Below, one piece after another: positions 1,972 through 38,274 of a stretch of DNA of 41,310 bases. Numbering within the stretch: the stretch's first letter is position 1; each line of letters begins with the position of its first letter. The stretch comes from an uncultured Draconibacterium sp. (GTDB taxonomy: Bacteria > Bacteroidota > Bacteroidia > Bacteroidales > Prolixibacteraceae). Location of the stretch: NCBI RefSeq assembly GCF_913060805.1, contig NZ_CAJXTC010000044.1, forward strand, positions 1 through 41,310. The letters run 5' to 3'. The position numbers and the translations under genes were made by a program. Under the pieces are notes generated by a model. It saw nothing but the letters and a program-made list of their open reading frames with translations. It did no database searches and had not been told where the DNA came from.

Positions 1972-2003
1972 GATTAGTTTCTTTTGATGTTATATGATGG
2001 GTG

Positions 2004-3664: not shown

Positions 3665-5314
3665 ATGGGAGTTTTCATACTTAAATTTATTTTTCTTTTC
3701 ACTTCAATCATATACGTTTGTAATGGATATAGCCAGGAGACTTCGAAAGATATATTGACAACCCTGGATGAAGTTATCGCTCAAAGAGAATACTTTGTAA
3801 CAAAAAAGCTCGACCGTCTTATCGAGTTAAAAGAATCTACACCAAGTCCGGAAAATGAGCATTATTTGACCAACTATTATGCCTATTGCTTAAGGCTTTA
3901 TAATGAGTATCAAACGTTTAAATTTGATTCAGCATACTATTATGCAAAAGAGCTAAATGAAACTGCTCAACAAATTAATAACTCTGAATTGATTGCAAGT
4001 GCAAAGATTGAATTTGCCAATATTCTTATCTCTGCCGGAATTTTCAATGAATCGTTAAAGACATTGAATTCTATTAACTTATTCCCCCTTTCGGATAAAG
4101 TAAAAGCAAATTATTATCAGGTACTGAGCCGGGGATATTTTGATATGGAAAGCTTTTCGCAAAGCCCCGAATTTGCACAGGATTACCGGGAAAAAGGGAT
4201 GGCCGGTTATGATTCGGCTTTAGTGTATTTGCCGCAATCTTCGTGGCAATACCATTCATTAATAGCTCAGAAAAATCTAAAACTGGGAAATAACGATACA
4301 GCCATTGTTGAGCTCGAAAATATAATAAGTACTTATAGTCTTACAAATGACGAATTAGCATTACCGTTAATATCTCTTGCTTTTACCTATGGAATTGTTG
4401 GAGACAAAGAAAAGGAGCTTATATATATGGCAAAAGCAGCAATGGCTGATCTAAGGGGAGCCAAAAAGGAAGCTGTTGCATTGCTTTTTCTTGCCAATAA
4501 TCTCTATGAACAGGGAGATATAATCCGTGCCAGCAAATATGTAAATATAGCCTTAGAAGATAGTCGCTTTTACGGAAGTAATTTCAGGCTTTGGCAGGTT
4601 TCCAATTTTCTGCCTTTTATTAAAGCAGAGCATATTGGAACCATTGAAAAACAAAAGAAACAACTATGGAATTACGCCTTGGTTGTAACTTTACTGATTA
4701 TCGTTGTGGGAATTTCTTTTGTTGTTATTGCAAGACAGACTGTAAAACTTAGAAAATCGAAAATAATCGTAGAAAAAACCAATAAAAAGCTGGCAGTAAG
4801 TAACGAGGAGTTACTGCTTGCCAACAGGATAAAAGAGGAATACATTGGTTATTATTTCGAAATTAGTTCTCAGATTATTGATAAGCTTGAAAAGTTAAAA
4901 TTATTGGTTGGCAGACGGTTGAAGAAAAGACAGTTTGATGAACTTTCACTTGAAGTTGACAACCTAAATATACATAAAGAAAAAGCAAAATTGTACCACA
5001 ACTTTGATAAAGCATTTCTCGAAATTTTTCCAGAGTTTCCGAATAAAATAAATGCCTTATTAAAACCTGAAGAGCAAATTCGCATGAAAGAAGGACAACT
5101 TTTAAATACCGAGTTGCGCATTATTGCTTTATTCAGGTTGGGCATTCAAGATGCTGAAAAGCTTTCCCGAATTCTCGACTGCTCGGTAAATACCATTTAT
5201 GCTTACAAATCGAAAATGAAAAACAAGTCTCAAAATCCTACCCAGTTTGAGCAGGATATCATGTTGGTTACTCGTGGGGCGAATATCGAAAATACGAGTT
5301 TATTACCTAAATAG
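3665..5314 (+). CDS. membrane-bound TPR/HTH transcriptional regulator (DUF6377 / SusR-like type)
   Basis: Probable sensor-regulator of the downstream alpha-glucan genes. The 549-residue protein starts with a signal peptide or anchor (residues 1-24, ending YSQ). A helical region of TPR character (about 30-320) would lie in the periplasm. One strong membrane helix (about 335-358, ALVVTLLIIVVGISFVVIA) is followed by a charged, coiled-coil-like cytoplasmic stretch and a C-terminal helix-turn-helix (about 480-525, with RIIALFRLGIQDAEKLSRIL then CSVNTIYAYKSKMKNK). Proteins of this architecture sit next to SusC genes in many Bacteroidota glucan loci, including, as I recall, the dextran locus of B. 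thetaiotaomicron. It lies 279 bases upstream of and co-directional with SusC. The ligand is not visible from the sequence. Confidence 0.8.
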   Translation: MGVFILKFIFLFTSIIYVCNGYSQETSKDILTTLDEVIAQREYFVTKKLDRLIELKESTPSPENEHYLTNYYAYCLRLYNEYQTFKFDSAYYYAKELNETAQQINNSELIASAKIEFANILISAGIFNESLKTLNSINLFPLSDKVKANYYQVLSRGYFDMESFSQSPEFAQDYREKGMAGYDSALVYLPQSSWQYHSLIAQKNLKLGNNDTAIVELENIISTYSLTNDELALPLISLAFTYGIVGDKEKELIYMAKAAMADLRGAKKEAVALLFLANNLYEQGDIIRASKYVNIALEDSRFYGSNFRLWQVSNFLPFIKAEHIGTIEKQKKQLWNYALVVTLLIIVVGISFVVIARQTVKLRKSKIIVEKTNKKLAVSNEELLLANRIKEEYIGYYFEISSQIIDKLEKLKLLVGRRLKKRQFDELSLEVDNLNIHKEKAKLYHNFDKAFLEIFPEFPNKINALLKPEEQIRMKEGQLLNTELRIIALFRLGIQDAEKLSRILDCSVNTIYAYKSKMKNKSQNPTQFEQDIMLVTRGANIENTSLLPK

Positions 5315-5593: not shown

Positions 5594-8500
5594 ATGACGA
5601 AATTTGTAAACAGCGTACTGGCTATTGGTATTATTCTAATTACGGTACATTCCAGTTCTGAAGTTTATGCAAACGGGAACTTACAATCCGGTTCAACAAA
5701 AACTTCAGTACAGCAAAACGAAAAAACAGTAAAAGGTACGGTTACTGATTCCAGGGGAGAGCCTTTACCAGGCGTAACAGTTGTTTTAAAAGGTACAACC
5801 AAAGGAACAACAACCGACTTCGATGGAAATTACTCCTTGTCGAATATTCCCGCAGATGGTATTCTGGTATTTTCTTTTGTTGGTATGCAGGATGTTGAAG
5901 AAAGTATACAAAACAAAAGTGAACTTAATGTAACCATGCTTGAGAAAACGATTGGCCTGGAGGAAGTGGTTGCGATAGGCTACGGTTCACAAAAGAAGAA
6001 AGATCTTACCGGTTCTGTCGTTTCAGTAAGCACCGATGATTTAAAATCGCTCCCACTGGCGAGCGTTGGTGAAGCCATGCAGGGGAAAGCTGCCGGTGTG
6101 CAGATTATCTCGAGTGGTACTCCCGGTAACGACCCAACCTTTCGTATTCGTGGTATTGGCACCATTAATAACAACGATCCTTTACTCGTAATCGACGGTG
6201 TACCAACTCAATCCGGTTTAAATCAATTAAACATGGATGATGTGGAATCGATACAGGTTTTAAAAGACGCATCGGCAACGGCAATTTATGGTTCGCGAGG
6301 TGCTAACGGTGTAGTTATTATAACCACAAAAAGCGGTAAATCAGGAAAAGGGGTTATTTCTTTCAATGCCTACTATGGTATGCAAGAGGCAACCAATATG
6401 GTTGACATGCTAAATGCTTCCGAATTTGCTTCGTTGCATAATGAAATGATGGCTAATGCCGGTCAGAATCAAAATCCGGCATATTCAAATCCGGCATCGC
6501 TGGGCGAGGGAACAGATTGGCTTGGGGCCATGTTTTCTACGGCTCCCATTCAAAATTATTCTATCTCGTATTCTGGCGGTAACGAAAAATCAAATTATTA
6601 CGTTTCCGGCAACTATTTCGACCAGGAAGGAATTGTAAACAATACAGGATTTGAACGTTACACTTTAAAATTCAATTCAGACAATCAGATTCTTGATAAA
6701 GTGAAATTTGGTAATAACATTACTCTAAATCACGACAAAAAATACAGCGGCGACTATAGCATAATAGATGCTATGAGAGCACTTCCAACTCAGGAAATTT
6801 ATAACCAGGATGGTACGTATGCCGGACCGGTTGGAATCCCAATGTGGTATGGCGATGTTGTAAATCCGATTGGACGTTCAGAAATAATTGAGAATACAAC
6901 CCTGGGATACAACCTTATGGGATCAGTTTATGGCGAAGTAGAAATATTGAAAGGGCTTGTTTTTAAATCGCTGGCAGGTATAAAGGCTAACTTTTGGGAA
7001 TCACGTTCGTGGTCACCAAAATATGACTGGCAGCCTACTCCACAGGAACAATCTTATCTTGGCGAAGGCTGGAATCGCTCCATAACCTGGAACTGGGACA
7101 ACACGCTTACCTATAAAACAACAATAGACGAGAAGCATAAGCTAACACTGCTGGCTGGTACAAGTGCCCAGGAAAATAAGTTCAAATATATGACCGGTTC
7201 CATTCAGGAATTTGCCAGCGACTTAACCCAGCAACTTGACAATGGTTTAACTCAAAAAAATATAGGAGGAAATACAAATGAGTGGTCTTTAATGTCTTAT
7301 ATGGGGCGTGTAAATTATTCGTTTGCCGACAAATACTTGCTTACCGGAACAGTTCGTTACGATGGTTCATCAAGGTTCGGGCAAAACAACAAATGGGGAT
7401 TATTCCCATCGGGTTCTGCAGCCTGGAGGATCTCGGAGGAGGATTTCTTTGAAAACATTGAATTTGTTGACGATTTAAAACTCAGGGCAGGATATGGTGT
7501 TACCGGTAATCAGGAAATTGGAAACTACTCGTTTGCTTCGGCGCTAAATACCATTAAGTATAACCTAAACGATAATCTTGTAAATGCAGTTGTGCCTATT
7601 GTGATGCCCAATCCCAATGTTCAATGGGAATCGCAAAAGCAGGCAAACATTGGTTTCGATGCTACTATTTTAGACCAACGCCTGAATATCACATTCGATG
7701 CCTATATCAAAAATACGGAGGACATGCTTGTTCCTGCTTCAATACCCATTACTACGGGTTATTCCGATATTTATGTTCCATCGATTAATGCCGGAGAAAT
7801 TGAGAATAAAGGAATCGAGCTTAGTATTACCTCGCATAATTTAAAGGGTGATTTTACATGGGATACTGATTTTAATATTTCGGTAAACAGAAACGAGGTT
7901 AAAAGCCTGAACGACACCATTCCGATGGCACGAGGCAGCGTAGGTTTTAACCAAAGTATTGCCCGCTTGGAAGTTGGACAGCCCATGGATGTATTCTATG
8001 GTTTTGTAACTGATGGGATTTTTCAAAATCAACAGGAAGTTGACGAACATGCCTTGCAGGTACCCGGAGATGACCCGTATTCAAGAACATCGGCTGGAGA
8101 TATCCGGTATTTGGACTTAAACAGCGACGGCATAATCGATGATAACGACCGTACGTACATTGGTAACCCGAATCCTGATTTCATTTTTGCTTTAAACAAT
8201 ACTTTCACCTATAAAGGGTTCGACCTTACAGTCTTTCTTCAGGGGGTTTACGGAAATGATATTTACAACGCCAATAAAATCTGGAGTGAAGGTATGGCCG
8301 TAGCCCAGAATCAAACTATAGGAGCACTTGACCGTTGGACAGCAGAAGGTACAAGCACTACAGTACCACGAGCCGTATTTAACGACCCCAATAAAAACAT
8401 TCGCCCATCTGACCGCTTTGTAGAAGATGGTTCGTACCTGAGGGTGAAAAACATAACATTTGGTTACACCTTACCGGCCAGCATCATTCAAAAGGCAAAA

Positions 8501-8653
8501 ATGAGTTCTGCTCGCATCTATGTCTCAGGAACGAATCTTTTCACATTTACCGATTACTCGGGATTCGATCCTGAGGTTGGTGTTAACGGAATTGATTTAA
8601 ATACTTATCCGGTGACAAAAACCTACAGTCTGGGTGTAAATATTAGCTTCTAA
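5594..8653 (+). CDS. SusC-like TonB-dependent receptor of the alpha-glucan locus
   Basis: Outer-membrane importer of oligosaccharides, partner of the SusD encoded 19 bases downstream. At 1019 residues it has full family length. Domains in order: signal peptide (about 1-27, ending VYANG), carboxypeptidase-D-like regulatory domain (about 45-120, VKGTVTDSRGEPLPGVTV), a TonB-box-like region (EEVVAIGYGSQKKKDLTG), plug (about 135-250, FRIRGIGTI, DPLLVIDGVPT, VESIQVLKDASATAIYGSRG) and a 22-strand barrel ending in an aromatic-type terminus (TYSLGVNISF). There is no STN domain, so anti-sigma signalling is unlikely. The substrate is inferred to be dextran or isomalto-oligosaccharide from the GH66 gene in the same operon. 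Confidence 0.95.
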   Translation: MTKFVNSVLAIGIILITVHSSSEVYANGNLQSGSTKTSVQQNEKTVKGTVTDSRGEPLPGVTVVLKGTTKGTTTDFDGNYSLSNIPADGILVFSFVGMQDVEESIQNKSELNVTMLEKTIGLEEVVAIGYGSQKKKDLTGSVVSVSTDDLKSLPLASVGEAMQGKAAGVQIISSGTPGNDPTFRIRGIGTINNNDPLLVIDGVPTQSGLNQLNMDDVESIQVLKDASATAIYGSRGANGVVIITTKSGKSGKGVISFNAYYGMQEATNMVDMLNASEFASLHNEMMANAGQNQNPAYSNPASLGEGTDWLGAMFSTAPIQNYSISYSGGNEKSNYYVSGNYFDQEGIVNNTGFERYTLKFNSDNQILDKVKFGNNITLNHDKKYSGDYSIIDAMRALPTQEIYNQDGTYAGPVGIPMWYGDVVNPIGRSEIIENTTLGYNLMGSVYGEVEILKGLVFKSLAGIKANFWESRSWSPKYDWQPTPQEQSYLGEGWNRSITWNWDNTLTYKTTIDEKHKLTLLAGTSAQENKFKYMTGSIQEFASDLTQQLDNGLTQKNIGGNTNEWSLMSYMGRVNYSFADKYLLTGTVRYDGSSRFGQNNKWGLFPSGSAAWRISEEDFFENIEFVDDLKLRAGYGVTGNQEIGNYSFASALNTIKYNLNDNLVNAVVPIVMPNPNVQWESQKQANIGFDATILDQRLNITFDAYIKNTEDMLVPASIPITTGYSDIYVPSINAGEIENKGIELSITSHNLKGDFTWDTDFNISVNRNEVKSLNDTIPMARGSVGFNQSIARLEVGQPMDVFYGFVTDGIFQNQQEVDEHALQVPGDDPYSRTSAGDIRYLDLNSDGIIDDNDRTYIGNPNPDFIFALNNTFTYKGFDLTVFLQGVYGNDIYNANKIWSEGMAVAQNQTIGALDRWTAEGTSTTVPRAVFNDPNKNIRPSDRFVEDGSYLRVKNITFGYTLPASIIQKAKMSSARIYVSGTNLFTFTDYSGFDPEVGVNGIDLNTYPVTKTYSLGVNISF

Positions 8654-8672: not shown

Positions 8673-10151
8673 ATGAATACAATAAAAAATATACTGGCAA
8701 TAGCGGTTTTGGCTGTAATTGCTATTTCGTGTAGCGATGAATTTCTTGATAAAGCGCCACTCGATTCGATAAATACTGATAATTATTATCAAACTGAAGA
8801 GGATGCCATAAATGCTGTAAACGGGGCATACCAACCATTACAATGGCCCAAACTGTATAACATGCGCATGTGGACAACGGATATTATGGCTGGAAACAGT
8901 ATTGTTGGTGCCGGAGGTGGTGATGATGGCCGCGAAACACAAGACATGGCCAACTTTGTTACAACAACCGATAACCCGGGCGTTTTAGATTTATTCCGTG
9001 GTCCGTGGCCGGGTATTTTACGCAGCAATATCGTTCTGGAGAAAATTCCGTCAATGGATATTGATGAGTCCTTAAAGAATCGAATTTTAGGTGAAGCACA
9101 TTTCCTAAGGGCACATTACTACTTTATTCTGGTGCGTTTTTTTGGCGATGTTCCGCTAATAACAGAACCACAAGTACCTGGCGATGATTTACGTCCGGCA
9201 CGAACCGACAAAAGCCTGGTTTACGATCTGATTATCGATGATTTAACCACCGCAAAAGATTTATTGCCAACAAAATCAAGTTATTCTTCCAACGATTTAG
9301 GAAGGGCAACCAAAGGTGCTGCCACAGGGCTGTTGGCTAAGGTTTACCTCACGTTAGGCGAATGGGAGAATGTGGTTTCGTTAAGCAACGAGGTTACTGC
9401 ATTAGGCTATCGTTTAAATGAAAACTATGCGGATAATTTCGATGTTTACAATAAGAATTCCATAGAATCATTATTTGAAGTGCAATATACCGGAGATGCG
9501 GGCGAAGACTTCTGGTCAAACGAAAACCAAGCATCATGGTTGAGTACTTTTCAGGGGCCACGAAACTCAGGAATGGTAGCCGGTGGTTGGGGCTGGAACC
9601 AGCCAACGCAGGAATTTATCAATGCTTACGAGGAAAACGATTTAAGAAAGGACGCAACAGTATTCTACGAAGACTGTCCAAATTTTGATGGTCAGAAATA
9701 CAATCCTACTTACTCCATAACTGGTTTTAATCTTCGGAAATTTCTGGTTACCAAGGCAATTTCAGCCACTTACGATAATAGCCCAATGAACTTTCCGGTA
9801 CTACGTTATGCTGATGTCTTGTTAATGAAATCTGAAGCACTGAACGAGTTGAACAGGACTTCTGAAGCAGAAGCTCCGTTAAATGAGGTGCGCGAGAGAG
9901 CAGGATTAGAAGCAGTAGGCGGAAAATCGCAATCAGAAATGAAAGAGATCATCCTGAATGAACGCCGTTTGGAATTGGCTTTTGAAGGTCAGCGCTGGTT
10001 CGACTTAATTAGAGTTGATAACGGGCAATGGGGACTGGATTTCCTACACTCAATTGGCAAAGTAAACGCTACCGAAAAGCATTTTCTGTTTCCAATCCCG
10101 CTAAAAGAGATTGAGTCGAATCCTAATCTTACCCAAAATCCGGGATACTAA
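8673..10151 (+). CDS. SusD-like (RagB/SusD) surface glycan-binding lipoprotein
   Basis: Surface lipoprotein that caps the SusC barrel and captures glycan. It has 492 residues, a lipobox ending AISC (Cys20) followed by acidic residues (SDEF), and the DKAPLDSINTDNYYQTEEDAINAVNGAY start typical of the family. The helical TPR-like core contains the conserved region around EAHFLRAHYYFILVRFFGDVPL. The C-terminal RRLELAFEGQRWFDLIR and FPIPLKEIESNPNLTQNPGY motifs are diagnostic. It follows SusC by 19 bases and precedes the SusE/F-like gene by 44 bases. Confidence 0.95.
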   Translation: MNTIKNILAIAVLAVIAISCSDEFLDKAPLDSINTDNYYQTEEDAINAVNGAYQPLQWPKLYNMRMWTTDIMAGNSIVGAGGGDDGRETQDMANFVTTTDNPGVLDLFRGPWPGILRSNIVLEKIPSMDIDESLKNRILGEAHFLRAHYYFILVRFFGDVPLITEPQVPGDDLRPARTDKSLVYDLIIDDLTTAKDLLPTKSSYSSNDLGRATKGAATGLLAKVYLTLGEWENVVSLSNEVTALGYRLNENYADNFDVYNKNSIESLFEVQYTGDAGEDFWSNENQASWLSTFQGPRNSGMVAGGWGWNQPTQEFINAYEENDLRKDATVFYEDCPNFDGQKYNPTYSITGFNLRKFLVTKAISATYDNSPMNFPVLRYADVLLMKSEALNELNRTSEAEAPLNEVRERAGLEAVGGKSQSEMKEIILNERRLELAFEGQRWFDLIRVDNGQWGLDFLHSIGKVNATEKHFLFPIPLKEIESNPNLTQNPGY

Positions 10152-10195
10152 GTTAACGGGCAGTTTCTTAATAAATCAAACGTAAATAGTAAACA

Positions 10196-11713
10196 ATGAA
10201 AAACTTTAGATATAAAAATAATAACTGCAGTAAGCGAAATTACATGCAAAACGGGATGTGGATTTCTGTACTCGTAGTAATAGCTATAACGCTTTTAAAT
10301 TCTTGCCAAAAAGAAGAAGATGTTGTTGTTGCATTGGGAGCCCCCATAGCAATATCAGTATCAAATTCTGAACTGACACTGTCTCAAAAACAAGCTTCTG
10401 AATCTGTTTTTTCTTTTAGCTGGACACGCGGAACAAACCACGGAACTTCCAGCTCAATTTCATATTCACTTGAAATGGATATGGAAGGAAATGAGTTTGC
10501 AACAGCACAGATTTACGACCTTGGAAAAGGTGTTTATGAAAAGAAATTTAATGCCGAAGAATTAAACGATTTACTGTTGAATTATTGGGGGGTGGAACCC
10601 GGCTCAACAGCTTCGTTCGAGGCAAAAGTTACGGCAAATGTGGTTAAAGAGGGGGTTGAAGACGGTGTGTCAGAAACATTAATTTTTTCTTTAACGCCTT
10701 ATAAACCGGTTTCCGAAGAATTGTACATGGTTGGCAGCGCCACTCCAAATGGTTGGGATATTGGCAACGCTACTCCTTTGATACCTAATTCTTCTCAGCC
10801 CTGGGTTTTCACTTATGAAGGGCAAATGAAAACCGGAACATTCAAATTTGCAGTGAATACCGATGGATGCTGGTGCCAGGATTTTTACACAAAAGATGCA
10901 AATGACGATTCAAAAATGGTGTACAACGAAGGAGGTAGTGGCGACGATCTGCAATGGGAAATCATTGAAGGAGGAAACTATAAACTCACGGTTAATTTAT
11001 TGGACCTAAGCATTGAAATGAAAAAACTTGCGGGTCCTGAATTTGGTGAACTGTATATTGTTGGTGATGCTTCTCCATCGGGATGGAACATCGGAAATCC
11101 GGAGGCTTTTACTCAAAGCGCAGCCGATCCGTTTGTATTTACTTATGAAGCGATGCTAACTCCCGGAGAATTTAAAATATCAACTTTTGCAGGCGATTGG
11201 TGTGATGGGCAATGGATTAATCCAAGTCAACCCGATCAGGATGTTACAGCTACCGATTATATTGTAACCAACAGATGCGATGGCCCGGACAACAAATGGC
11301 GTGTTACCGAAGAAACCCAGGGACGATACCTGATTACAGTTAACCTGTATAATAATTCGATAAAAATAGAACGAGTAATGCTTTACATCATTGGAGATGG
11401 TGGCCCTAACGGATGGAATATTGGAACTCCGGAACCGATGACAATAGTAAACGGCATTTATGTTTTTGAGGGTGAACTTGGTGCAGATAACCCAACCGGC
11501 GAATTTAAAATTTCAAAGTTCAAAGGAGATTGGTGCAATGGCGATTGGATTAATGCAGCCAATCCAAACCAGTCAATTTCAAATACCGATTTCATTACAA
11601 CTCACGGGTGCGATGGACCGGACAATAAATGGAAATTACAGGATGGTGACGCTGGAACTTATCGGATTTCCATCGATCTGGAAGCAGATGTTCTTACAAT
11701 TGAGAAACAATAA
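10196..11713 (+). CDS. SusE/SusF-like surface glycan-binding lipoprotein
   Basis: Probable outer-surface alpha-glucan-binding protein. A lipobox ends LLNSC (Cys37) with QKEED after it, an acidic pattern that fits surface export. An N-terminal SusE-type beta domain (about 45-170) is followed by three related beta-sandwich repeats starting at about 174, 283 and 395, each opening with (L)Y(M/I)(V/I)G and PNGW or PSGW and ending in a strand like LTIEK. Repeats 2 and 3 share GDWC(D/N)G and CDGPDNKW, so they look recently duplicated, and each holds a cysteine pair. The family resembles the starch-binding SusE/SusF. The start is uncertain: in-frame ATGs at residues 17 and 21 would leave a more usual signal peptide. 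Confidence 0.85.
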   Translation: MKNFRYKNNNCSKRNYMQNGMWISVLVVIAITLLNSCQKEEDVVVALGAPIAISVSNSELTLSQKQASESVFSFSWTRGTNHGTSSSISYSLEMDMEGNEFATAQIYDLGKGVYEKKFNAEELNDLLLNYWGVEPGSTASFEAKVTANVVKEGVEDGVSETLIFSLTPYKPVSEELYMVGSATPNGWDIGNATPLIPNSSQPWVFTYEGQMKTGTFKFAVNTDGCWCQDFYTKDANDDSKMVYNEGGSGDDLQWEIIEGGNYKLTVNLLDLSIEMKKLAGPEFGELYIVGDASPSGWNIGNPEAFTQSAADPFVFTYEAMLTPGEFKISTFAGDWCDGQWINPSQPDQDVTATDYIVTNRCDGPDNKWRVTEETQGRYLITVNLYNNSIKIERVMLYIIGDGGPNGWNIGTPEPMTIVNGIYVFEGELGADNPTGEFKISKFKGDWCNGDWINAANPNQSISNTDFITTHGCDGPDNKWKLQDGDAGTYRISIDLEADVLTIEKQ

Positions 11714-11763
11714 ATTTTAATATGCGCAGGGGGTGTATTGCTCCCTGCTGATTTTAATCAAAA

Positions 11764-13554
11764 ATGAGAGAAAACAAAGTGCAAATAGTAGTATTATTAA
11801 TGCTTCTGTTCCTACAAATGGGATGTGGCAGCAACGAAGAAATAGTTCCGCCAGTAGCGGAGCCGGAGTTTCCTACAAATCCGTCATTACCGGGTTTCAA
11901 TAATTACTTTGTTGAAACAGATAAGTCAATTTATAATCCGGGCGATGAAGTTCAATTCAATCTTGATATTACATCGGTTCCTGAAAACACAAAAGTACGA
12001 TACAAATATCTTGGGGAAGTTGTACTGGAGCATGCTTTAACAAACAGTTCATGGGTTTGGAATGTACCATCAGAGGATTTTAAGGCTTACATGGTTGAAG
12101 TTTATACAACTGCAAACAATGCCGAAAATATTCTTGCTGCAATTGCAGTTGATGTTTCTTCCAATTGGACAAAGTTCCCGAGATATGGATTTTTATCAGA
12201 CTATTCAAATATTGATGACGAGACAATAAGCTCGGTGTTGAAAAATCTGAACAGGCACCATATTAATGGTATTCAATTTTACGACTGGCACCATAAACAT
12301 CATCAACCGATGGCTGTGGATGGTGACTCTCCAAAAGCGGTGTGGAAAGATATTGCCAACCGTGATATTTACTTTTCAACAGTTGAAAAATACATTGAAA
12401 ACGCCCACAACTACAATATGAAAGCCATGTTTTACAATTTGGTGTATGGAGCATGGGATCACGCAGAGCAGGATGGTGTAAAGGCAGAATGGTATATTTT
12501 TAAAGATGCCGGTCGGATAAACAAAGAGGTAATGACACTTCCTCAGCCCCCGTTTTTAAGTAACATTTTTCTTCTCGACCCATCAAATACAGAATGGCAG
12601 GCTTACATCAATAACGAAAACAAAAAGGTATATCAATACCTCGATTTTGATGGCTTTCACATGGATCAGTTGGGTGATTGGGGACAACATTATACCTACC
12701 ACGGCAATTCGTTAAGTCTGTATAAAACATTTAAACCATTTATTGAGTCGGTTAGGACGAGCGAGCCGGATAAGTTTATCGCCATGAATGCCGTGAATCA
12801 ATACGGACAAGAGAATATTGCTTCCGCATCGACGGATTTTCTTTATACGGAGGTTTGGGGACCAAACGATACCTACAACGATTTGGCAATGATTATCCAG
12901 AATAATAATTCATACAGCGATAATACCAAGAATACAATACTAGCCGCCTACATGAATTACGATTTAGCGGAAAATCAGGGTTATTTCAATACCCCGGGAG
13001 TTTTACTAACAAACGCAGTAATTTTTGCCTTTGGAGGTGCACACCTGGAATTGGGCGAACACATGCTGGGCAAGGAGTATTTCCCAAATAACAACCTTAA
13101 AATGAAGTCGGAATTAAAAACCGCAATGGTACATTATTACGACTTTTTGGTTGCTTATCAGAATATTTTACGCGACGGAGGTGAATTTAATGCCGTAGAG
13201 ATTCAGTCGGCAGAAAACAAATATCCTATCTCCCAATGGCCTGCCCAAACCGGAAACATTGTATCTGTAGGCAAAAAAGTGGGAAACAGGCAGGTTGTTC
13301 ATCTTATAAATTTTAAGGATGCCAACACGAATGAATGGCGCGATAACAATGGAACTCAATCCAGACCTGCATTAATGGAGAATATTCCTATTTCAATAAA
13401 TATTTCAGAGAAGGTAAGCAGTATTTGGTTTGCTTCACCCGATGCAAACGGAGGAACATCGGTATCGTTGAATTTTACCCAGCAGAATGGTGAAGTATTA
13501 CTTACAGTACCTCAACTAAAATATTGGAGCACAATTGTTCTGGAGCTTGAATAG
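11764..13554 (+). CDS. GH66 dextranase-like glycoside hydrolase, lipoprotein
   Basis: Probable endo-dextranase (or cycloisomaltooligosaccharide-forming enzyme) acting on alpha-1,6-glucan. The 596-residue protein has a lipobox ending QMGC (Cys21) followed by GSNEE, suggesting surface display. A beta-sandwich (about 45-130) precedes a TIM barrel (about 135-480) and a C-terminal beta domain. The GH66 catalytic motifs are visible: FDGFHMDQLGDWG with the expected nucleophile Asp301, and YTEVWGPND with the expected acid/base Glu363. This assignment is the main reason for calling the whole operon a dextran locus. No CBM35 insertion of the kind found in cyclodextran-forming enzymes is apparent, which favours a dextranase. 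Confidence 0.88.
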   Translation: MRENKVQIVVLLMLLFLQMGCGSNEEIVPPVAEPEFPTNPSLPGFNNYFVETDKSIYNPGDEVQFNLDITSVPENTKVRYKYLGEVVLEHALTNSSWVWNVPSEDFKAYMVEVYTTANNAENILAAIAVDVSSNWTKFPRYGFLSDYSNIDDETISSVLKNLNRHHINGIQFYDWHHKHHQPMAVDGDSPKAVWKDIANRDIYFSTVEKYIENAHNYNMKAMFYNLVYGAWDHAEQDGVKAEWYIFKDAGRINKEVMTLPQPPFLSNIFLLDPSNTEWQAYINNENKKVYQYLDFDGFHMDQLGDWGQHYTYHGNSLSLYKTFKPFIESVRTSEPDKFIAMNAVNQYGQENIASASTDFLYTEVWGPNDTYNDLAMIIQNNNSYSDNTKNTILAAYMNYDLAENQGYFNTPGVLLTNAVIFAFGGAHLELGEHMLGKEYFPNNNLKMKSELKTAMVHYYDFLVAYQNILRDGGEFNAVEIQSAENKYPISQWPAQTGNIVSVGKKVGNRQVVHLINFKDANTNEWRDNNGTQSRPALMENIPISINISEKVSSIWFASPDANGGTSVSLNFTQQNGEVLLTVPQLKYWSTIVLELE

Positions 13555-13591: not shown

Positions 13592-16255
13592 ATGACACGA
13601 CTTATTGCAATACTATTCATTCTGTTTCTTTTTGCGGGCTGCCAAAAAAAATCAGATATGCTCTATAAAGGAAATGAATTCTCGGTTTTTACGGATAAGG
13701 TTGTTCAGGGAAATTACGAATCGAAAGCGAATTCCCGGACAAACCTGGTTTCAAACTATGTAAGTACCGCATCCGACAATTATTCGCGGCTAATTACCTT
13801 CAAATTCAGTATTAATGAAAAGGATAATGAAATGATTTCCGGGGAAGACCACTGGATTATGATTGGTGACGAAAACAGTTCTCCATTAATAAAGTTTGGT
13901 GAGTCAGACGGTAAAGTCGCTGAAAATAACGGATCCAAACTTCCGGTTAATTATTTGTACACCTTCAGGCTGGATATGTCAGAAGTTTTAGACGCTTTCG
14001 ACAAACAAGGCTATTATGAAGCTTTTGACGGAAGCAGAATTGCAAAATCTGATTTTAAAGGAGTTTATATTGCTGGTGGTTCTGAGCCACTAACCTGGGA
14101 CTTTTCCAATCTGGAAGAAAACAATCTGGAACTGAAGGATGAAAACCATGATGGAATTTATGAGCTGACAGTTTTGCTAAATCCTACTAGTAGCGACGAA
14201 CATCAGGCAAAACAATGGAATTTATCTCGAAATGTTGCTGCAAAACCAGCTTATCATTCGGAGCAGATTATTGTTGATGCACTGTACAATCTGGCCCTTG
14301 AAGAAGCTTTATTGAATATCGAGCCGGATAGCACACTTCGTACAGGAGCAAAATGGGGAGGAGTTTGGACCCGCGATGTGAGTTACAGCACTTTGTTAGC
14401 TTTTGCTTATCACGAGCCAGAAGTAGCCAAAATCAGTTTAATGAAAAAAGTGAAGCGTGGACGAATAGTTCAGGATACAGGCTCCGGTGGTGCCTGGCCT
14501 GTTTCGTCTGACCGCACCACTTGGGCATTAGCTGCCTGGGAAATCTACAAAGTTACCGGAGAAGAGGAATGGCTGGAATACGCTTTCGATGTTATTAAAA
14601 ATACCCTGGATGATGATATGAAAACTTTGCGATCAGGGACCACCGGAATGTACAAGGGAGAATCGTCGTTTCTCGACTGGCGGGAGCAAACCTACCCCAA
14701 GTGGATGTCGAACATGGATATTTACGTTTCTGAGAATCTGGGAACCAACGTAGTTCATTACCAGGCTCACATTATTCTGGCTGAAATGGCCAGGCTTTTA
14801 AACAAACCTTCCGAAGAATATTTGCAGAGAGCAAACGAGATAAAAACAGGCATAAACAAATACCTTTGGATGGAAGACAAAGGTTATTATGCACAGTATC
14901 TTTATGGACGAAATTCACTGATACAATCACCACGTTTTGAGGCACTGGGAGAAGCGCTCGCGGTACTATTCGATGTTGCCGATAAAAATCAGGCTGAAAG
15001 TATCTTATCAAATTCACCGGTTACCGAATTTGGAACGACCTGTATTTATCCTCAAATCCCCGGAATTCCGCCCTATCACAATAACGGTATCTGGCCTTTT
15101 GTGCAGTCATTTTGGAATATAGCGGCAGCAAAGGTTGGTAACGAAGTGGCGCTTGAACATGGCCTGGCATCAATATATCGTGCGGCAGCCTTATTTCTGT
15201 CAAACTATGAAAATTTTGTAGCTGAAAATGGCGATTATGTTGGTACAGAAATAAACTCTCATCGTATGCTTTGGAGTATGGCTGGTAACCTTGCCATGGT
15301 ACATCGTTTATTTATCGGGATGCATTTTGATGTTGATGGTATACGTTTTAATCCCGTGATTCCTGAATCGTATAAAGGAACAAGAACCTTATCGAATTTT
15401 AAGTATAGGAAAGCAGTTCTTGATATTGAAGTCGATGGCTTTGGAAATGAAATTGAGTTTTTCATGCTTGATGGGCACGCAATTGATAACGCATTTTTCC
15501 CTTCAGAACTAGAAGGAAAACACAATGTGCATATTAAAATGAAGAATAAAAGTTTTTCTTCTTTTGGTATAAATTTGGTCGCTAACAAATTTTCCTTGCC
15601 TAATCCACAAATCAAATTTGAAAATTCAAAAATTACCTGGAATCCGGTAAAAGAGGCTAAATCTTATAAAATATATAGAGACGGAGCTTTTTTGAAATCA
15701 ACCAGTACAGAATATTTTATTCCTGAAAAAAAAGGTTTCAGCGAATACTCGGTAACTGCTGTTGACGATGAGGGAAGTGAATCGTTTGGAAGTGAACCTT
15801 CAGCAAATTGTTCTTCGGAGAATGAATTAGTATTTGAGTTAGAAAATTATATTAGTCCTTCAAGTGCCAATTACACCAACTTTTCTGGTACTGGATTTAT
15901 CGAAACCAGTTATACAACAAATACTGAAATTGAAGTTCCTGTAACTGTTGAAACTCCTGGTAGTTATCTAATCGATCTCCGTTATTCCAACGGGACGGGC
16001 CCTTGGAACACAGATAATAATTGTGCCATACGTAGTTTGTATGTAAACAATGATTATCAGGGTGTTCAGGTATTTCCACAGCGGGGACAGGATGAGTGGT
16101 CGGACTGGGGATGGTCAAACTCAACAAGAGTCAAGCTACTAAAAGGTAGTAACAATATTAAACTGATTTTTGAAGAATGGAATAACAACATGGATGGTAA
16201 AATCAACACGGCTATGCTGGATAAAATTAGGTTGATAAAACTCGATACAGAGTAA
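13592..16255 (+). CDS. uncharacterised (alpha/alpha)6-barrel glycosidase with Fn3 and CBM6/35-like domains
   Basis: Last gene of the alpha-glucan operon; I recognise the fold type but not a numbered family. Of 887 residues, 1-17 are a lipoprotein signal (FAGC, Cys17), about 25-230 a beta-rich domain, and about 235-610 a six-hairpin toroid. The toroid shows VWTRDVSYSTLLAF (Arg261-Asp262), GGAWPVSSDRTTWALAAWE, GESSFLDWREQTYP (Asp362, Glu365) and a region near residue 555 with EINSHRMLWSMAGNLA. These resemble trehalase, debranching and rhamnosidase-type toroids, and I take the conserved acids as likely catalytic. About 668-735 is Fn3-like and 745-885 a CBM6/35-like sandwich. No GH31, GH97 or GH13 accompanies the GH66, so this enzyme may release glucose from isomalto-oligosaccharides or branch points; that is inference. 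Confidence 0.7.
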   Translation: MTRLIAILFILFLFAGCQKKSDMLYKGNEFSVFTDKVVQGNYESKANSRTNLVSNYVSTASDNYSRLITFKFSINEKDNEMISGEDHWIMIGDENSSPLIKFGESDGKVAENNGSKLPVNYLYTFRLDMSEVLDAFDKQGYYEAFDGSRIAKSDFKGVYIAGGSEPLTWDFSNLEENNLELKDENHDGIYELTVLLNPTSSDEHQAKQWNLSRNVAAKPAYHSEQIIVDALYNLALEEALLNIEPDSTLRTGAKWGGVWTRDVSYSTLLAFAYHEPEVAKISLMKKVKRGRIVQDTGSGGAWPVSSDRTTWALAAWEIYKVTGEEEWLEYAFDVIKNTLDDDMKTLRSGTTGMYKGESSFLDWREQTYPKWMSNMDIYVSENLGTNVVHYQAHIILAEMARLLNKPSEEYLQRANEIKTGINKYLWMEDKGYYAQYLYGRNSLIQSPRFEALGEALAVLFDVADKNQAESILSNSPVTEFGTTCIYPQIPGIPPYHNNGIWPFVQSFWNIAAAKVGNEVALEHGLASIYRAAALFLSNYENFVAENGDYVGTEINSHRMLWSMAGNLAMVHRLFIGMHFDVDGIRFNPVIPESYKGTRTLSNFKYRKAVLDIEVDGFGNEIEFFMLDGHAIDNAFFPSELEGKHNVHIKMKNKSFSSFGINLVANKFSLPNPQIKFENSKITWNPVKEAKSYKIYRDGAFLKSTSTEYFIPEKKGFSEYSVTAVDDEGSESFGSEPSANCSSENELVFELENYISPSSANYTNFSGTGFIETSYTTNTEIEVPVTVETPGSYLIDLRYSNGTGPWNTDNNCAIRSLYVNNDYQGVQVFPQRGQDEWSDWGWSNSTRVKLLKGSNNIKLIFEEWNNNMDGKINTAMLDKIRLIKLDTE

Positions 16256-17100: not shown

Positions 17101-19851
17101 ATGAGTTTTTTTTTAAAACAAATATCAACGATTCTACTCCTTCTTTTCATTTCAGAATATGGATTCGCCAAAGATAAATACCTAATAGGTTTTTCTCAGT
17201 GTGCCCAACATGGAGATTGGCGACTAAATATGGAAGCTGAAATGGAGCGTGAAATAATGTTTCATGATGATTTATCCTTGATCATAAAACAGTCCTATGA
17301 CGATGCCAACCTACAGGTGCAACAGATTCACGAATTGGTTGAAATGGGTATCGACTTGTTAATTGTATCTCCCTATCAAATTGATCCCGTACAACCGGTT
17401 ATCGATGCGGTATTTAAAAAAGGTATACCGGTAGTATTGGTTGATAGAAGAATCAATTCAGATAATTATACGGCATACGTAGGTGGTGATAATTACATGA
17501 TTGGGAAAGTTGCTGCAAGTTACATCGCCAATAGGCTTAACAACAAGGGTAATATTGTAGAAATTATGGGAGGTTTAACTTCTTCACCAGCTATTGAGCG
17601 AACCCGCGGTTTTAATGAAACTCTGGAGAATTTTCCTCAACTTCAAAATATTATGAGGATTAATACAACTGAGACACTTGAAGTTGTGACTGACAGTTTA
17701 TCTGAGATCATCAAAAGAGACATCGATGTTGATGCAATCTTTGCATTCAATGATGATTATGCGGTAATGGCCAGGAATGTTATTAATCAATCGATAAACG
17801 AAGATCATATTTTAATAATTGGAATCGACGGATTACCTAATGCAGGAGGAGGAATAGAAATGGTTGAAAAAGGAATTCTCTCTGCCACTCTAATATACCC
17901 AACTGGAGGAAAAGAAGCGATTGAGATTGCGTCAAAAATTCTGCACAATGAGGTGTTCGAAAAAGAAAATCTACTAAGTACGACACTTGTAGACCGCTCA
18001 AATGTTGACATAATCAGGAAACAATTTGATAAAATCAACTCACTTCAAACCGATATTTCCAAATCTAAGGATATGCTACTGAACCTGGGTGAAAAGTTTA
18101 AGTTTCAACAGTTCATGTTATATCTAGTTACAGGCACTTTCGTGCTTGTTATCCTTTTAATGTTCTTGCTCGTTCGATCATTTTATAAATTAAAGGATGC
18201 TAACATTCATCTCAAAAAGCAAAAGAAAGAATTAAAAAAGCTATCAGATAAAGTAGAAAAGATTACGCAAGAAAAACTGAAGTTTTTTACAAATATTTCT
18301 CACGAATTCAGAACACCTCTCACTCTGATTGTCGGCCCTCTTGAGGATCTTTTAAAGACATCTGATTTACCGGATAATATTTATAAACGAGTTAGCCTGA
18401 TGCATAAGAACTCATTGAGGTTACTCCAGTTGATCAACCAGCTCATGGACTTCCGAAAAATAGAAAATTCAAAAATGAAACTTCAGGCAGGTCATTATGA
18501 TGTGGTTAAATTTCTTAGCGATATTCATGAATCATTTTTGTCGCTTGCCGAGAATAGACAGATTAATTTGATTTTCGACACCAATTTATCGCAACTTAAA
18601 GCCTGGTTTGATTGGGACAAACTAGACAAAGTTGTATTTAATCTTGTTTCCAATGCATTTAAATTTACACCAACAGGTGGCACTATTATAATTAAACTTC
18701 GAAAAGAACTACTCACTGTAAAATCTTTGTGGGAAGAACAACTGATAATTGAAGTCACGGATAACGGAAAAGGAATCTCACAAAAACATATCAATCATAT
18801 TTTTGACCGTTTTTATCAGGTTGACAAAACAGACAATTTGAAAGGGACAGGACTGGGACTGGCTTTATCAAAGGAATTTGTTGAGATGCACCGCGGTAGA
18901 ATAACTGTTGAGAGCATTGAAAGTAAAAAAACAACATTTATAGTAAAACTTCCATTGGGAGATGCACATTTAACCCAGGAAGAAAAAATAAAGGATGAAT
19001 GTCAAAAACCGTTGGTGCAAGATCTGCTGGGTTATAGTAATACCAACCAGAATGTGGACAATGATAAAGGGGCAACAATCAAAACACCGGACTCCATACC
19101 AAAACCAGTTGTTCTGCTTGTTGAAGATGACAATGACGTACGGTCATATGTGAAAGAATGTCTACAGGATACATACGACGTTTTTGAAGCCCAAAATGGA
19201 AAAATTGCCTTAAAAATGATTGAAGAAGAAGAACCAGATGTAATTGTGAGCGATATAATGATGCCAGAGATGGACGGTTTGGAATTAACCCATCAACTTA
19301 AAAATGATCTGAAAACCTGCCATATTCCAATCATCCTGTTAACGGCAAAGTCTTCACTTGAACAAAGGTTGGAGGGCCTTGAAGAAGGAGCGGATTCTTA
19401 TATTCCCAAACCTTTTAGCAAAGAGCATCTACAAATCAGGATTAGAAAATTGCTTGACCTGCGTAAAAAAATTCACGAACGTTACAAAAGCCAGTATATT
19501 ATTGAAGATGAACAAAATAATATTTCAAGATTGGATAAAAACTTTCTAGATAAAATTTCCAAGATAGTGAAGGATAATATTCAAAAAGAAGAGTTTACGG
19601 TAGAAGAGCTGAGTGATTTGGCAGGTCTATCAAGAGTACAAATGTACAGAAAAGTAAAAAAACTAACCGGAATGTCGGGAAGCGAATATGTCCGATTAGT
19701 GAAGCTGAAAGAATCCCTTGAACTGATTAAGACGAGCGGAAAAAGTATGGCAGAAATTGCTCATGAAGTTGGATTTTCATCTCCTTCCTACTTCGCACAG
19801 TGTTTTAAGAAACAATTTGGGATTTCTCCATCCGACTATGCAAAAAAATAG
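17101..19851 (+). CDS. hybrid two-component system protein with periplasmic sugar-binding domain (BT1754-like)
   Basis: Single-polypeptide sensor and regulator spanning the inner membrane, expected to sense fructose and activate the fructan genes. Domains of the 916 residues: signal peptide (1-23), periplasmic type I sugar-binding fold of the LacI/RbsB kind (about 26-315, GFSQCAQHGDWR, VVLVDRRINSDNYTAYVGGDN), membrane helix (about 339-362), HisKA with FFTNISHEFRTPLTL (phospho-His401), HATPase (Asn518 in NAFKFTP, then TDNGKGI and GTGLGL), receiver with VSDIMMPEMDG (phospho-acceptor Asp718) and AraC-type HTH (about 805-916). Most such proteins have a two-bladed-propeller sensor instead; the sugar-binding version is the one shown for BT1754, which binds fructose. 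It converges with the GH32 operon, ending 47 bases from its last stop. Confidence 0.93.
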   Translation: MSFFLKQISTILLLLFISEYGFAKDKYLIGFSQCAQHGDWRLNMEAEMEREIMFHDDLSLIIKQSYDDANLQVQQIHELVEMGIDLLIVSPYQIDPVQPVIDAVFKKGIPVVLVDRRINSDNYTAYVGGDNYMIGKVAASYIANRLNNKGNIVEIMGGLTSSPAIERTRGFNETLENFPQLQNIMRINTTETLEVVTDSLSEIIKRDIDVDAIFAFNDDYAVMARNVINQSINEDHILIIGIDGLPNAGGGIEMVEKGILSATLIYPTGGKEAIEIASKILHNEVFEKENLLSTTLVDRSNVDIIRKQFDKINSLQTDISKSKDMLLNLGEKFKFQQFMLYLVTGTFVLVILLMFLLVRSFYKLKDANIHLKKQKKELKKLSDKVEKITQEKLKFFTNISHEFRTPLTLIVGPLEDLLKTSDLPDNIYKRVSLMHKNSLRLLQLINQLMDFRKIENSKMKLQAGHYDVVKFLSDIHESFLSLAENRQINLIFDTNLSQLKAWFDWDKLDKVVFNLVSNAFKFTPTGGTIIIKLRKELLTVKSLWEEQLIIEVTDNGKGISQKHINHIFDRFYQVDKTDNLKGTGLGLALSKEFVEMHRGRITVESIESKKTTFIVKLPLGDAHLTQEEKIKDECQKPLVQDLLGYSNTNQNVDNDKGATIKTPDSIPKPVVLLVEDDNDVRSYVKECLQDTYDVFEAQNGKIALKMIEEEEPDVIVSDIMMPEMDGLELTHQLKNDLKTCHIPIILLTAKSSLEQRLEGLEEGADSYIPKPFSKEHLQIRIRKLLDLRKKIHERYKSQYIIEDEQNNISRLDKNFLDKISKIVKDNIQKEEFTVEELSDLAGLSRVQMYRKVKKLTGMSGSEYVRLVKLKESLELIKTSGKSMAEIAHEVGFSSPSYFAQCFKKQFGISPSDYAKK

Positions 19852-23811: not shown

Positions 23812-24918
23812 TTATTTGTTCAATAAATAATCAATACTATTCTTATATATCTTATGCACATTGCTTAAATACGGATTGTCGCGGCCATCGTTCATATTCC
23901 ATTCCATACCACCAATTCCAATTGTAATGATATAACCTTCGAACCTATCAAATGGGTTCCAGACAATAATACCTGCAAAACCCTGTCCGCCAACAGCCCA
24001 ATCCCATGCAGCAATCGGTTCGGCGCCATAAAGCGAATTAAAGGTGGTATATGGCGCGTTGGTAATAGAGCCTAAATTCCACAAAGCATTATGGTCTTCT
24101 TTATATCCAGCGTCGATTACGTAAGCCATATTTGGCGCATAGAAGTCTAAACCAGCAGAAATAATATTAGCGACCTCAGAACCGGAAAAACCAACTCCCC
24201 AAGTATCCGGATTATTGCCTCCTTCTCCTGTTCCAATTATATTTCTTAAACCGGAATTGTCACGTCCTAACTCTTCAACAAGGCCTGTCCCCAACAATCC
24301 GGCTACAATTTTACCACCTTGTACATAAAACTTAGAAAGCACATTCAGTTTTTCTAATAAGGCTGCCGGTTGGTCTGAAGTTCCTACATTGTCGTAAACA
24401 TATACTATAACATTAACTCCATCCAGTGCTTCATCCGATAATTCATCGAAAGAAATGTAAATAAAGTCAGTTCCATAAGTTGCTTCTGTCCACTGGGCTG
24501 CAGCTTTCACATCATCATCGGCTATTTCTGCAATAGTTGTACCGTCACCCAAAAAAGCTACTTTCGAGGGCAGCAACGTTGCATGAACCATATAGGTTCT
24601 TTCTGAAAACCCGTTACTTACAACAACCTGAGTAGGACTATTTAAATCAAGACTTGAGCCGCTTGTGGGTGTTACAGTGACTCCATCGGGCACAGTTGCC
24701 TCAAATACCACAGAACTTAAATCGGTACCACCTGCCAAACTGATATTTATGGTGCCGGACAAATGGTCAATTTCAGCACTTTTACTATTGATTGTAACAT
24801 CTTCAACTATATCGAGAACCGATGGGCCATCCATATAGTTTTCCCTCTCGTTGCAGGATTGCAACCCTAGTAACAGGGTTACAATCGCTACTATATTTAT
24901 ATAGACTATTCTCTTCAT
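23812..24918 (-). CDS. surface glycan-binding lipoprotein, DUF5018/DUF4960 type (short form)
   Basis: Probable fructan-binding protein in the position of BT1761 of the levan locus. The 368 residues hold a lipobox ending QSC (Cys22), one immunoglobulin-like DUF5018-type repeat (about 35-116, ending with SERTYMVHATL) and a DUF4960-like C-terminal domain (about 117-368, KVAFLGDGTTIAEIADDDVKAA at its start). It is a tandem paralogue of the 610-residue protein encoded 11 bases upstream, which has three of the N-terminal repeats. Family assignment is from recalled sequence features, so moderate certainty. Confidence 0.75.
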   Translation of the reverse strand: MKRIVYINIVAIVTLLLGLQSCNERENYMDGPSVLDIVEDVTINSKSAEIDHLSGTINISLAGGTDLSSVVFEATVPDGVTVTPTSGSSLDLNSPTQVVVSNGFSERTYMVHATLLPSKVAFLGDGTTIAEIADDDVKAAAQWTEATYGTDFIYISFDELSDEALDGVNVIVYVYDNVGTSDQPAALLEKLNVLSKFYVQGGKIVAGLLGTGLVEELGRDNSGLRNIIGTGEGGNNPDTWGVGFSGSEVANIISAGLDFYAPNMAYVIDAGYKEDHNALWNLGSITNAPYTTFNSLYGAEPIAAWDWAVGGQGFAGIIVWNPFDRFEGYIITIGIGGMEWNMNDGRDNPYLSNVHKIYKNSIDYLLNK

Positions 24919-24929
24919 TTTATTGAACT

Positions 24930-34730: not shown

Positions 34731-34743
34731 TTTAAAGTGATTA

Positions 34744-37683: not shown

Positions 37684-37692
37684 AGTAAAAAT

Positions 37693-38061
37693 TTAGCGCA
37701 GGTGTTTTTGTAAAAAAGCCAGACATTGCATCACCATCTGAAAAGTCTGTTTTAGCAGACGCCGGTCATTATCTCCAACATTGTAAGTAGAAAATGAATT
37801 CATCTTTTTAGAGAGCTGGTTCAGGTTCACACCGATCCTATTTAATTCATAGTCCAAATTAGTCAACCGTTCTTTTGTCTCCGAATCCAAGTGAACTTCC
37901 TTCTTAACTGATCTCCGAAATATGGCAAAGCGTATATAATCACTCCGGCAGCCAAACTTCCCGGTACGCACCATACTATCCAATCGCTGCTTTTCCTCTT
38001 TAGTAAGAAGCAGCCGGATAATCTCGGTTCGTTTTTCGTTTTCCGGTAATTTTGGTCGCAT
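37693..38061 (-). CDS. mobC: MobC-like relaxosome accessory protein
   Basis: Small DNA-binding protein that assists the relaxase at oriT. I start it at the ATG at 38061, giving 122 residues beginning MRPKLPENEKRTEIIRLLLT. A ribbon-helix-helix-like region (about 10-50) is followed by the MobC signature ELNRIGVNLNQLSKKMNSF. The open frame continues 61 residues further upstream to 38244, but that part is composition-biased (CKMCFYYHK, CSPLPKKAKRK) and translates the inverted-repeat region at 38086-38189, so I take it as non-coding. It is directly followed by the relaxase. Confidence 0.85.
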   Translation of the reverse strand: MRPKLPENEKRTEIIRLLLTKEEKQRLDSMVRTGKFGCRSDYIRFAIFRRSVKKEVHLDSETKERLTNLDYELNRIGVNLNQLSKKMNSFSTYNVGDNDRRLLKQTFQMVMQCLAFLQKHLR

Positions 38062-38085
38062 AATATACTTTCGTTTTGCTTTTTT

Positions 38086-38189: not shown

Positions 38190-38274
38190 CCGTAGTTGTT
38201 TCGTAGTGACTTTTCGAGGTCTTCTCTGGTCGGAGTATTCCCAAATTGTATCCCTGAAAAAGTCAATTGTTGAT

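Follow-up and report, generated by a model that had tools for sequence, protein, structure and literature searches.

A six-hairpin lipoprotein as a candidate exo-alpha-glucosidase in the place of GH97 in a Draconibacterium dextran operon

The last gene of a dextran operon in an uncultured Draconibacterium sp. (assembly GCF_913060805.1) encodes an 887-residue lipoprotein with a six-hairpin toroid, here named SHG. The operon lies on a contig of 41,310 nucleotides (NZ_CAJXTC010000044.1, contig C44), the whole of which is referred to as the window. We think it probable that SHG is an exo-acting, inverting alpha-glucosidase for isomalto-oligosaccharides, serving at these operons in the stead of glycoside hydrolase (GH) family GH97, with which it shares no detectable sequence relation (no match to PF10566) and whose fold differs from its own. 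Pfam and NCBIfam searches give the operon the order SusR, SusC, SusD, SusE/F, BT3087-type GH66 and SHG, whose ATG begins 37 bases past the GH66 gene:

3665..5314, + strand: SusR-type regulator of the operon (NCBIfam NF058541, 499.4 bits, cut-off 480)
5594..8653, + strand: SusC-like TonB-dependent transporter (TIGR04056, 972 bits)
8673..10151, + strand: SusD-like surface glycan-binding lipoprotein (PF07980, 153 bits)
10196..11713, + strand: SusE/SusF-like surface glycan-binding protein (PF16411, PF14292)
11764..13554, + strand: GH66 endodextranase (PF13199, 678 bits; NF052487 EndoDexBT3087 equivalog, 828 bits, cut-off 730)
13592..16255, + strand: six-hairpin lipoprotein SHG, 887 residues (open reading frame, Pfam, structure model)

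From SusR to GH66 this is the order of the GH66 loci of F. johnsoniae (FjDexUL) and B. thetaiotaomicron, and the two GH66 profile scores bear out the endo-enzyme that an earlier, sequence-only reading of the window had placed in the operon. Beyond GH66 the systems part: FjDexUL continues with GH31, GH97 and GH65 (PMC10316084), whereas in the window GH66 is followed by SHG and those three are not on the contig. Profile searches for GH31, GH97, GH65 and GH13 returned zero matches on C44, so that the claim that the usual exo-alpha-glucosidases are missing holds for the window. Of the marks by which a GH66 locus was recognised, the operon has the SusC/SusD pair and the BT3087-type GH66 together; it has no GH31 or GH97 exo-alpha-glucosidase of its own, and SHG is present instead.

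The absence of exo-enzymes in general proved a poor guide, and the informative pattern is an alternation between SHG and GH97. In a survey of the order, 21 of 305 genomes carried GH66; among 20 loci chosen by their GH66 gene, eight held SHG only, ten GH97 only, one both and one neither (p=0.0009), and with six further loci from a survey of the class these counts became 11, 13, one and one out of 26 (p=2.7e-5). A locus on a 3.1-kb contig (L182) was omitted from these counts and from the GH66 tree analysis. An overlapping set, which includes loci chosen by SHG, had GH97 in three of 18 loci with SHG and in all five without it; here the SHG loci were those with SusD and at least 6 kb downstream, and L122, L128 and loci failing this were left out. 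GH31 shows no such alternation. It was found in 9/12 GH66 loci with SHG, so that its absence from the window is not general, and this partly fits the counter-evidence named in advance by the sequence-only reading, an alpha-glucosidase as constant partner; yet GH31 occurs also in 9/14 GH66 loci without SHG and therefore does not explain SHG away. The same counts led us to dismiss the idea that SHG compensates for a missing GH31. The GH97 enzyme of F. johnsoniae is FjGH97A, which PMC10316084 describes as an exo-enzyme that acts best on alpha-1,6 linkages, next on nigerose and less well on kojibiose, prefers trisaccharides to disaccharides, leaves trehalose uncut, and makes the largest contribution to glucose release from branched dextran. 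FjGH97A and SusB have the same proposed job as SHG, exo-hydrolysis of isomalto-oligosaccharides. The suggestion of the sequence-only reading that SHG is an alpha-glucosidase of dextran breakdown is supported in its direction.

Homologues of SHG also co-occur with GH66, as had been proposed for checking. In 396 genomes of the class, SHG was present in 16, GH66 in ten and both in four including the host; without the host, GH66 was found in 3/15 genomes with SHG as against 6/380 others (p=0.003). The survey of the phylum (395 genomes; GH66 in 14, SHG in 27, both in nine) gave, again without the host, 8/26 against 5/368 (p=1.2e-7). The surveys, having genomes in common, are not independent of each other, and relatedness is not taken into account by Fisher's test. 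Among 41 near relatives, GH66 occurred in three genomes, all three of which have SHG; SHG itself (at least 690 residues) was present in eight of the 41, host counted, one of them (G034) having a second copy, L025. Four genomes of family f94 (G436, G440, G444, G448) carry SHG and GH66 on separate contigs.

The protein itself is well defined. Its frame (13592-16255, + strand) runs uninterrupted from ATG to stop, the opposite strand of the stretch being full of stops, and the lipobox LFAGC can be read directly from the sequence, which establishes the last gene as that of a lipoprotein, as had been stated. A crude lipobox pattern, which misses some, is found in 69 of 95 SHG rows. The structure model has a predicted local distance difference test score (pLDDT) of 91.2 and a predicted template modelling score (pTM) of 0.91, and replaced an earlier model (nine sequences, pLDDT 74) whose fold lists named much the same families. 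It comprises a beta-sandwich, an (alpha/alpha)6 toroid and a tail resembling carbohydrate-binding module (CBM) family CBM35:

13658..14260, + strand: N-terminal beta-sandwich, residues 23-223 (DSSP of the model; GH94 alignments begin at residues 40-50)
14267..15316, + strand: (alpha/alpha)6 toroid, residues 226-575 (model helices; PF17389/PF22422)
15317..15556, + strand: C-terminal beta domain after the toroid, residues 576-655 (model; weak GH65 C-terminal-like match)
15824..16246, + strand: CBM35-like tail, residues 745-885 (profile matches to CBM modules)

The toroid named in the sequence-only reading is thus upheld by two Pfam families and the model, and so is one of the two tails it proposed: residues 758-864 match CBM35-type modules, while for Fn3 there is no Pfam match at E<=0.1, the model having a small beta domain at residues ~660-740. 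In profile searches the tail comes closest to the modules carried by GH31 alpha-glucosidase 5x7o (50.8 bits) and by cycloisomaltooligosaccharide glucanotransferases (CITases 5x7g, 3wnl, 3wnk and 3wnp, 42.2-31.9 bits), followed more weakly by a glucosaminidase CBM (2vzp, 27.1 bits) and isomaltodextranase 5awo (18.6 bits).

Placing the toroid in a family is harder, and the earlier statement that it could not be placed in a numbered one stands in so far as no curated Pfam or NCBIfam model names SHG. Its Pfam matches are partial: the GH78 rhamnosidase six-hairpin model PF17389 at 37.7 bits (cut-off 24.5) over profile positions 101-219 of 339, the GH63 model PF22422 at 33.1 bits (cut-off 27) over positions 70-263 of 356, and the GH37 trehalase model PF01204 at 21.1 bits against a cut-off of 21, over residues 390-445 only. 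No full-length curated match to GH63, GH78 or GH37 was found in Pfam or NCBIfam. The GH65 C-terminal domain appears below cut-off (E 0.0083), and Pfam gave no match at E<=0.1 to PF03632 (GH65), PF00723 (GH15) or GDE_C, nor any to PF17167 (GH94), SHG also lying outside the GH97 matches of its genome. NCBIfam has nothing above cut-off for SHG, and the toroid alone matches far below it, trehalase included. Among the toroid domains of 44 relatives, at E<=0.01, PF17389 and PF22422 were matched by all, trehalase by 26, GDE_C by 22, GH100 by 18, GH116 by 11 and GH94 by nine, while 30 of the 44 matched NCBIfam PRK10137 at that E-value with its significance threshold not applied. Such a spread over six-hairpin families is as expected of a separate branch of the superfamily. 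Searched as a single sequence against the PDB, SHG yielded matches in its CBM tail, together with weak stretches of GH100 and GH37.

Profile-profile alignment narrows the choice. With hhalign the toroid matched six YgjK-type GH63 sequences at a probability of 97.7 (E 1.7e-12, 223-349 columns) and seven GH37 trehalases at 91.8 (E 7e-7), with 97-111 columns aligning confidently in the latter; these E-values refer to one pair each and are not comparable to those of a database search. Against single sequences, or three in the case of GH15, the probabilities were 76 percent for TreA, 72 for YgjK, 23 for GH65, 12 for GH94 and 4 for GH15, so that the ranking is uneven beyond GH63 and GH37; the single-sequence alignments are also loose around the active site, where TreA D312 falls opposite Arg364. 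By sequence profile, the YgjK-type alpha-glucosidases of GH63 are the nearest of the families tried, with Asp262 corresponding to YgjK D324 and PF22422 above cut-off. SHG differs from YgjK in the partial Pfam match, the place of the acid (which would be another or a shifted one), the CBM35-like tail and its setting in GH66 operons, and its likeness to GH37 is confined to those 97-111 confident columns and a Pfam match of 56 residues. GH65 (FjGH65A) and GH15, both of clan GH-L, share with SHG an N-terminal beta-sandwich before the toroid, and the acid and base candidates of SHG may lie in loops that correspond to theirs; the acid of FjGH65A is Glu, the candidates in SHG are Asp, and neither family's Pfam model matches. 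GH133, whose task is glycogen debranching (7vma, amylo-alpha-1,6-glucosidase), has a GDE_C domain that SHG does not match and 22 of the 44 relatives do. The fold matches listed for the model hold 50 PDB entries, which we take to be (alpha/alpha)6 enzymes throughout, with GH94 1v7v at the top (Z 30.4, root-mean-square deviation 3.3, 435 residues aligned, the N-terminal sandwich included). SHG has an invariant carboxylate at the likely position of the base, but GH94 phosphorylases, to our knowledge, have no carboxylate base. As part of the same reading, then, SHG probably belongs to a six-hairpin family, distantly akin to GH63 in sequence, which no model library tried (Pfam, NCBIfam) names. The literature searched (titles and openings of abstracts) holds no description of it, though coverage was partial and an earlier description is possible.

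Across 87 aligned SHG proteins, a few of them clipped at contig ends, four conserved residues are candidates for the active site:

14375..14377, + strand: codon of Asp262 (WTRD motif), which would contact glucose in subsite -1 (D in 86/87; YgjK D324 aligned, confidence 8 of 9)
14675..14677, + strand: codon of Asp362, first general-acid candidate (D in 86/87; motif by eye)
14717..14719, + strand: codon of Asp376, second general-acid candidate (D in 85/87; YgjK D501 aligned, confidence 4 of 9)
15209..15211, + strand: codon of Glu540, proposed general base (E in 87/87; motif by eye)

The single exception at Asp262 and at Asp362 is N in the degenerate row L028; at Asp376 this row again has N, and L112 has A. 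Glu357 is E in all 87. The sequence-only reading had rightly picked out Asp262 and Asp362 as conserved acids. It had added Glu365, which is E in 82 rows (the other five have K twice and Q, I and A once each, though it is kept in 25/25 dextran-context rows) and has been dismissed as an acid on that account, and it did not name the invariant Glu540. For comparison, we take D312 and E496 to be the catalysts of TreA, and D501 and E727 those of YgjK, PDB titles mentioning E727A and D324N glycosynthase mutants. By eye, ESSFLD362 resembles YgjK ESGRD501 and TreA SGWD312, and YE540NF...LWS resembles YgjK QE727NY...FSWS. The GH63 profile alignment sets D501 opposite Asp376 (Ser373 without realignment) and E727 in a gap; that with GH37 offers D312 no partner, only a gap, and pairs E496 with Ser537, three residues from Glu540, all in weak stretches. 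Asp362 was at one time our only candidate for the acid; since the profile alignments do not give it, the choice was widened to Asp362 or Asp376. Row L112, which lacks residues 365 and 376 and keeps 362, favours Asp362. In clan GH-L, helices 5 and 6 flank the acid and helices 11 and 12 the base, and an Asp of helix 2 contacts glucose (PMC8626586). In the SHG model, with 260-274 and 276-284 counted as two helices, Asp262 is on helix 2, Asp362 and Asp376 come before helix 6, and Glu540 lies between helices 11 and 12, the conserved acids occupying loops 346-382 and 536-559. Glu540 is probably the general base, and the general acid would be Asp362 or Asp376. Row L028 itself (10103-12793), a relative with 38% identity, has GTRN for WTRD and LNKSA for LDWRE, and has lost residues 262, 362, 365 and 376; it adjoins genes for a sodium-solute symporter and an N-acylglucosamine 2-epimerase-like protein, and judged by its sequence it is probably inactive, possibly a non-catalytic offshoot.

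Sequence, predicted fold, gene order, conservation, co-occurrence and alternation with GH97 are what was observed, and from them we infer the chemistry of SHG: its catalysis, inversion, linkage and place of action. GH66 would cut dextran at the cell surface, SusE/F and SusD would hold the fragments and SusC would import them. SHG would take single glucose units off the non-reducing ends of the isomalto-oligosaccharides, acting mainly on alpha-1,6 linkages and perhaps also on alpha-1,3 or alpha-1,2 stubs, by a single displacement with Glu540 as base and Asp362 or Asp376 as acid, while Asp262 would hold the terminal glucose and the CBM35-like tail may serve to anchor SHG to its substrate. It would thereby occupy the slot that GH97 has in many other GH66 loci.

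How far the dextran setting extends can be seen from the relatives. A scan of named genomes found at least 565 stretches encoding SHG relatives (one gene may match more than once), and the loci of the best 80 of these were fetched (L039-L118; 48-91% identity, all from Bacteroidota groups by title). Within four open reading frames (ORFs) of SHG, in 85 loci, the neighbours clustered as SusE-like (25), GH31 (24), GH66 (21), SusD-like (20), SusC (11) and GH27 (5), with no other cluster above four; the one neighbourhood to return in more than five loci is the dextran type (GH66, GH31). In a FastTree phylogeny of 95 SHG proteins, which has many weak branches, dextran context (GH66 or GH27 type within five ORFs) was found in 26 rows and required 14 changes, where shuffling gave 23.0 on average (0/500 shuffles as low). 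Of the other rows, 12 have GH31-, GH97- or GH13-like genes nearby and five have Sus genes of other kinds, 14 carry no information since their contigs end, and 38 count as solitary, a term for rows in which no neighbour resembled a reference protein from the window or from related loci (blastp, E<=1e-8), mostly without a Pfam run. Locus L089, which has no open SHG frame, was excluded from the clustering and the tree, and L023 from the tree. The GH27 member of L106 (7401-9941) matches isomaltodextranase 5awo at 323.6 bits, the next PDB entry reaching 42.5, and the gene beside SHG in L170 is 57% identical to it; GH27-type genes also accompany SHG in L050, L055, L105 and L109. L055, L106 and L170 have Sus genes and no GH66 within the stretch fetched, and are perhaps an alternative kind of dextran locus. 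In L166 and L167, SHG stands with GH97- and GH31-like genes. In D. orientale (L039; L021, 14714-17371) SHG adjoins a two-gene pair, which we presume to be of the IS21 transposase type from its resemblance, and the rest of the operon is missing; that this species carries the operon was considered and dismissed, its SHG (91% identical) having no such neighbours and its genome (G005) no GH66.

Several observations weigh against SHG as a dextran-dedicated replacement for GH97. GH66 is missing from 18 of the 26 SHG genomes of the phylum survey without the host, and the 38 solitary rows of the 95 mean that dextran is not the only setting; SHG lies beside GH94 in L026 and beside a fructan locus in L059. 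In L157-L160, from four genomes of one family, it stands among repeated neighbours of ~116, 433 and 183-190 residues that match nothing in the reference set, GH66 being on another contig. The GH66 tree requires only about three changes for each of SHG and GH97, and it offers two independent pairs (starred branches), in which GH97, averaged over trials, changed oppositely to SHG in 1.3 and showed no difference in 0.7, never changing in the same direction; so few pairs do not allow a test. The two genes occur together in L097, L105, L107, L113 and L176, and six non-Sus GH66 loci (L149, L150, L152, L153, L154, L156) have neither in reach. For the general acid, profile alignment favours Asp376 with GH63 and leaves a gap with trehalase, and the best structural match is GH94, a family of beta-glucoside phosphorylases.

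Three other functions can be set against these data. SHG might remove side chains, taking single-glucose branches off the products of GH66 as an inverting alpha-1,2- or alpha-1,3-glucosidase, much as the GH65 kojibiose hydrolase of F. johnsoniae does. We hold this to be unlikely, given that SHG alternates with GH97 and that FjGH97A prefers alpha-1,6 linkages (PMC10316084), nigerose and, to a lesser degree, kojibiose being further substrates; GH65 occurs too seldom for a test of its own. Alternatively, SHG might be a general alpha-glucosidase that many Bacteroidota use on another glucoside, such as trehalose, sucrose or pieces of starch, and that dextran loci recruit only sometimes. This would explain why 12 of the 16 SHG genomes of the class survey lack GH66 and why most loci fetched from there have no reference-like neighbour. 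It would suit the SusG-like GH13 and epimerase genes with which SHG is paired in L110, L114 and L118, and the partial Pfam matches of the 44 relatives to trehalase and GH100 invertase. It is also consistent with the finding that no position in residues 205-619 sets 25 rows of dextran context apart from 31 solitary ones at the 70% level, which implies either a general alpha-glucoside hydrolase acting in trans or dextran as one use among several. Against it stand the dextran type as the sole neighbourhood in more than five loci, the recurrence of that context over the tree, and FjGH97A, whose relatives alternate with SHG and which leaves trehalose uncut; on balance we regard a general glucosidase as quite improbable. 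That SHG acts on a sugar other than an alpha-glucan (an alpha-rhamnoside, mannosylglycerate or a beta-glucoside), as its best Pfam and fold matches would suggest, seems very improbable indeed, the Pfam matches being partial, the folds superfamily-wide and the recurring context alpha-glucan, with Glu540 invariant where the GH94 phosphorylases are without a carboxylate base. The exo-acting alpha-glucosidase for isomalto-oligosaccharides is the reading we prefer.

The rest of the genome and window provide the setting. Outside C44 the host genome has one match to GH31, one to GH65, seven to GH97 (five above cut-off) and eight to GH13 in about six frames, and three of these neighbourhoods were inspected (GH31, one GH97, GH65). 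The sole GH31 (945 residues) has 29% identity with the GH31 of a related dextran locus and lies in a Sus locus where SusC shares 38% and SusD 30% identity with the window's. Among the GH97 genes, the one that most resembles those of dextran loci (711 residues) has no Sus-like neighbour, and GH65 adjoins two GH13 genes. In the window, 845 bases 3' of SHG, a hybrid two-component regulator (17101-19851) that carries a sugar-binding domain is followed by a fructan locus on the opposite strand with three GH32 genes, in which two adjacent genes (23812-26762) both carry DUF4960, the longer one also DUF5018. A pair of genes for a PfkB-type sugar kinase and a major facilitator superfamily sugar porter occurs twice on the - strand (1069-3341 and 33834-36078), flanking both Sus loci; the two copies share 76% and 84% protein identity and 73% DNA identity across 2.27 kb. 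At the right end a relaxase (PF03432) and a MobC-like protein (36781-38244) precede short ORFs without a Pfam match, and are perhaps part of a mobilizable element adjoining the sugar loci. Promoter sites number 40, against 41.6 in shuffles, and terminators 14, against 11.3.

If SHG does what we propose, related bacteria would use two unrelated enzymes for the step of dextran breakdown that releases glucose. A testable function would also be given to a large family (at least 565 matched stretches). The rhamnosidase and trehalase labels that the partial Pfam matches invite would be corrected, and dextran use could be predicted independently of GH97 or GH65. More tentatively, and with somewhat less than even confidence, SHG may found a new GH family or a far branch of GH63: a phylum-wide group of six-hairpin, inverting exo-alpha-1,6-glucosidases that replaces GH97, without common origin, in many dextran loci of the Bacteroidota, and serves in loci with GH27 isomaltodextranase and in stand-alone settings as well.

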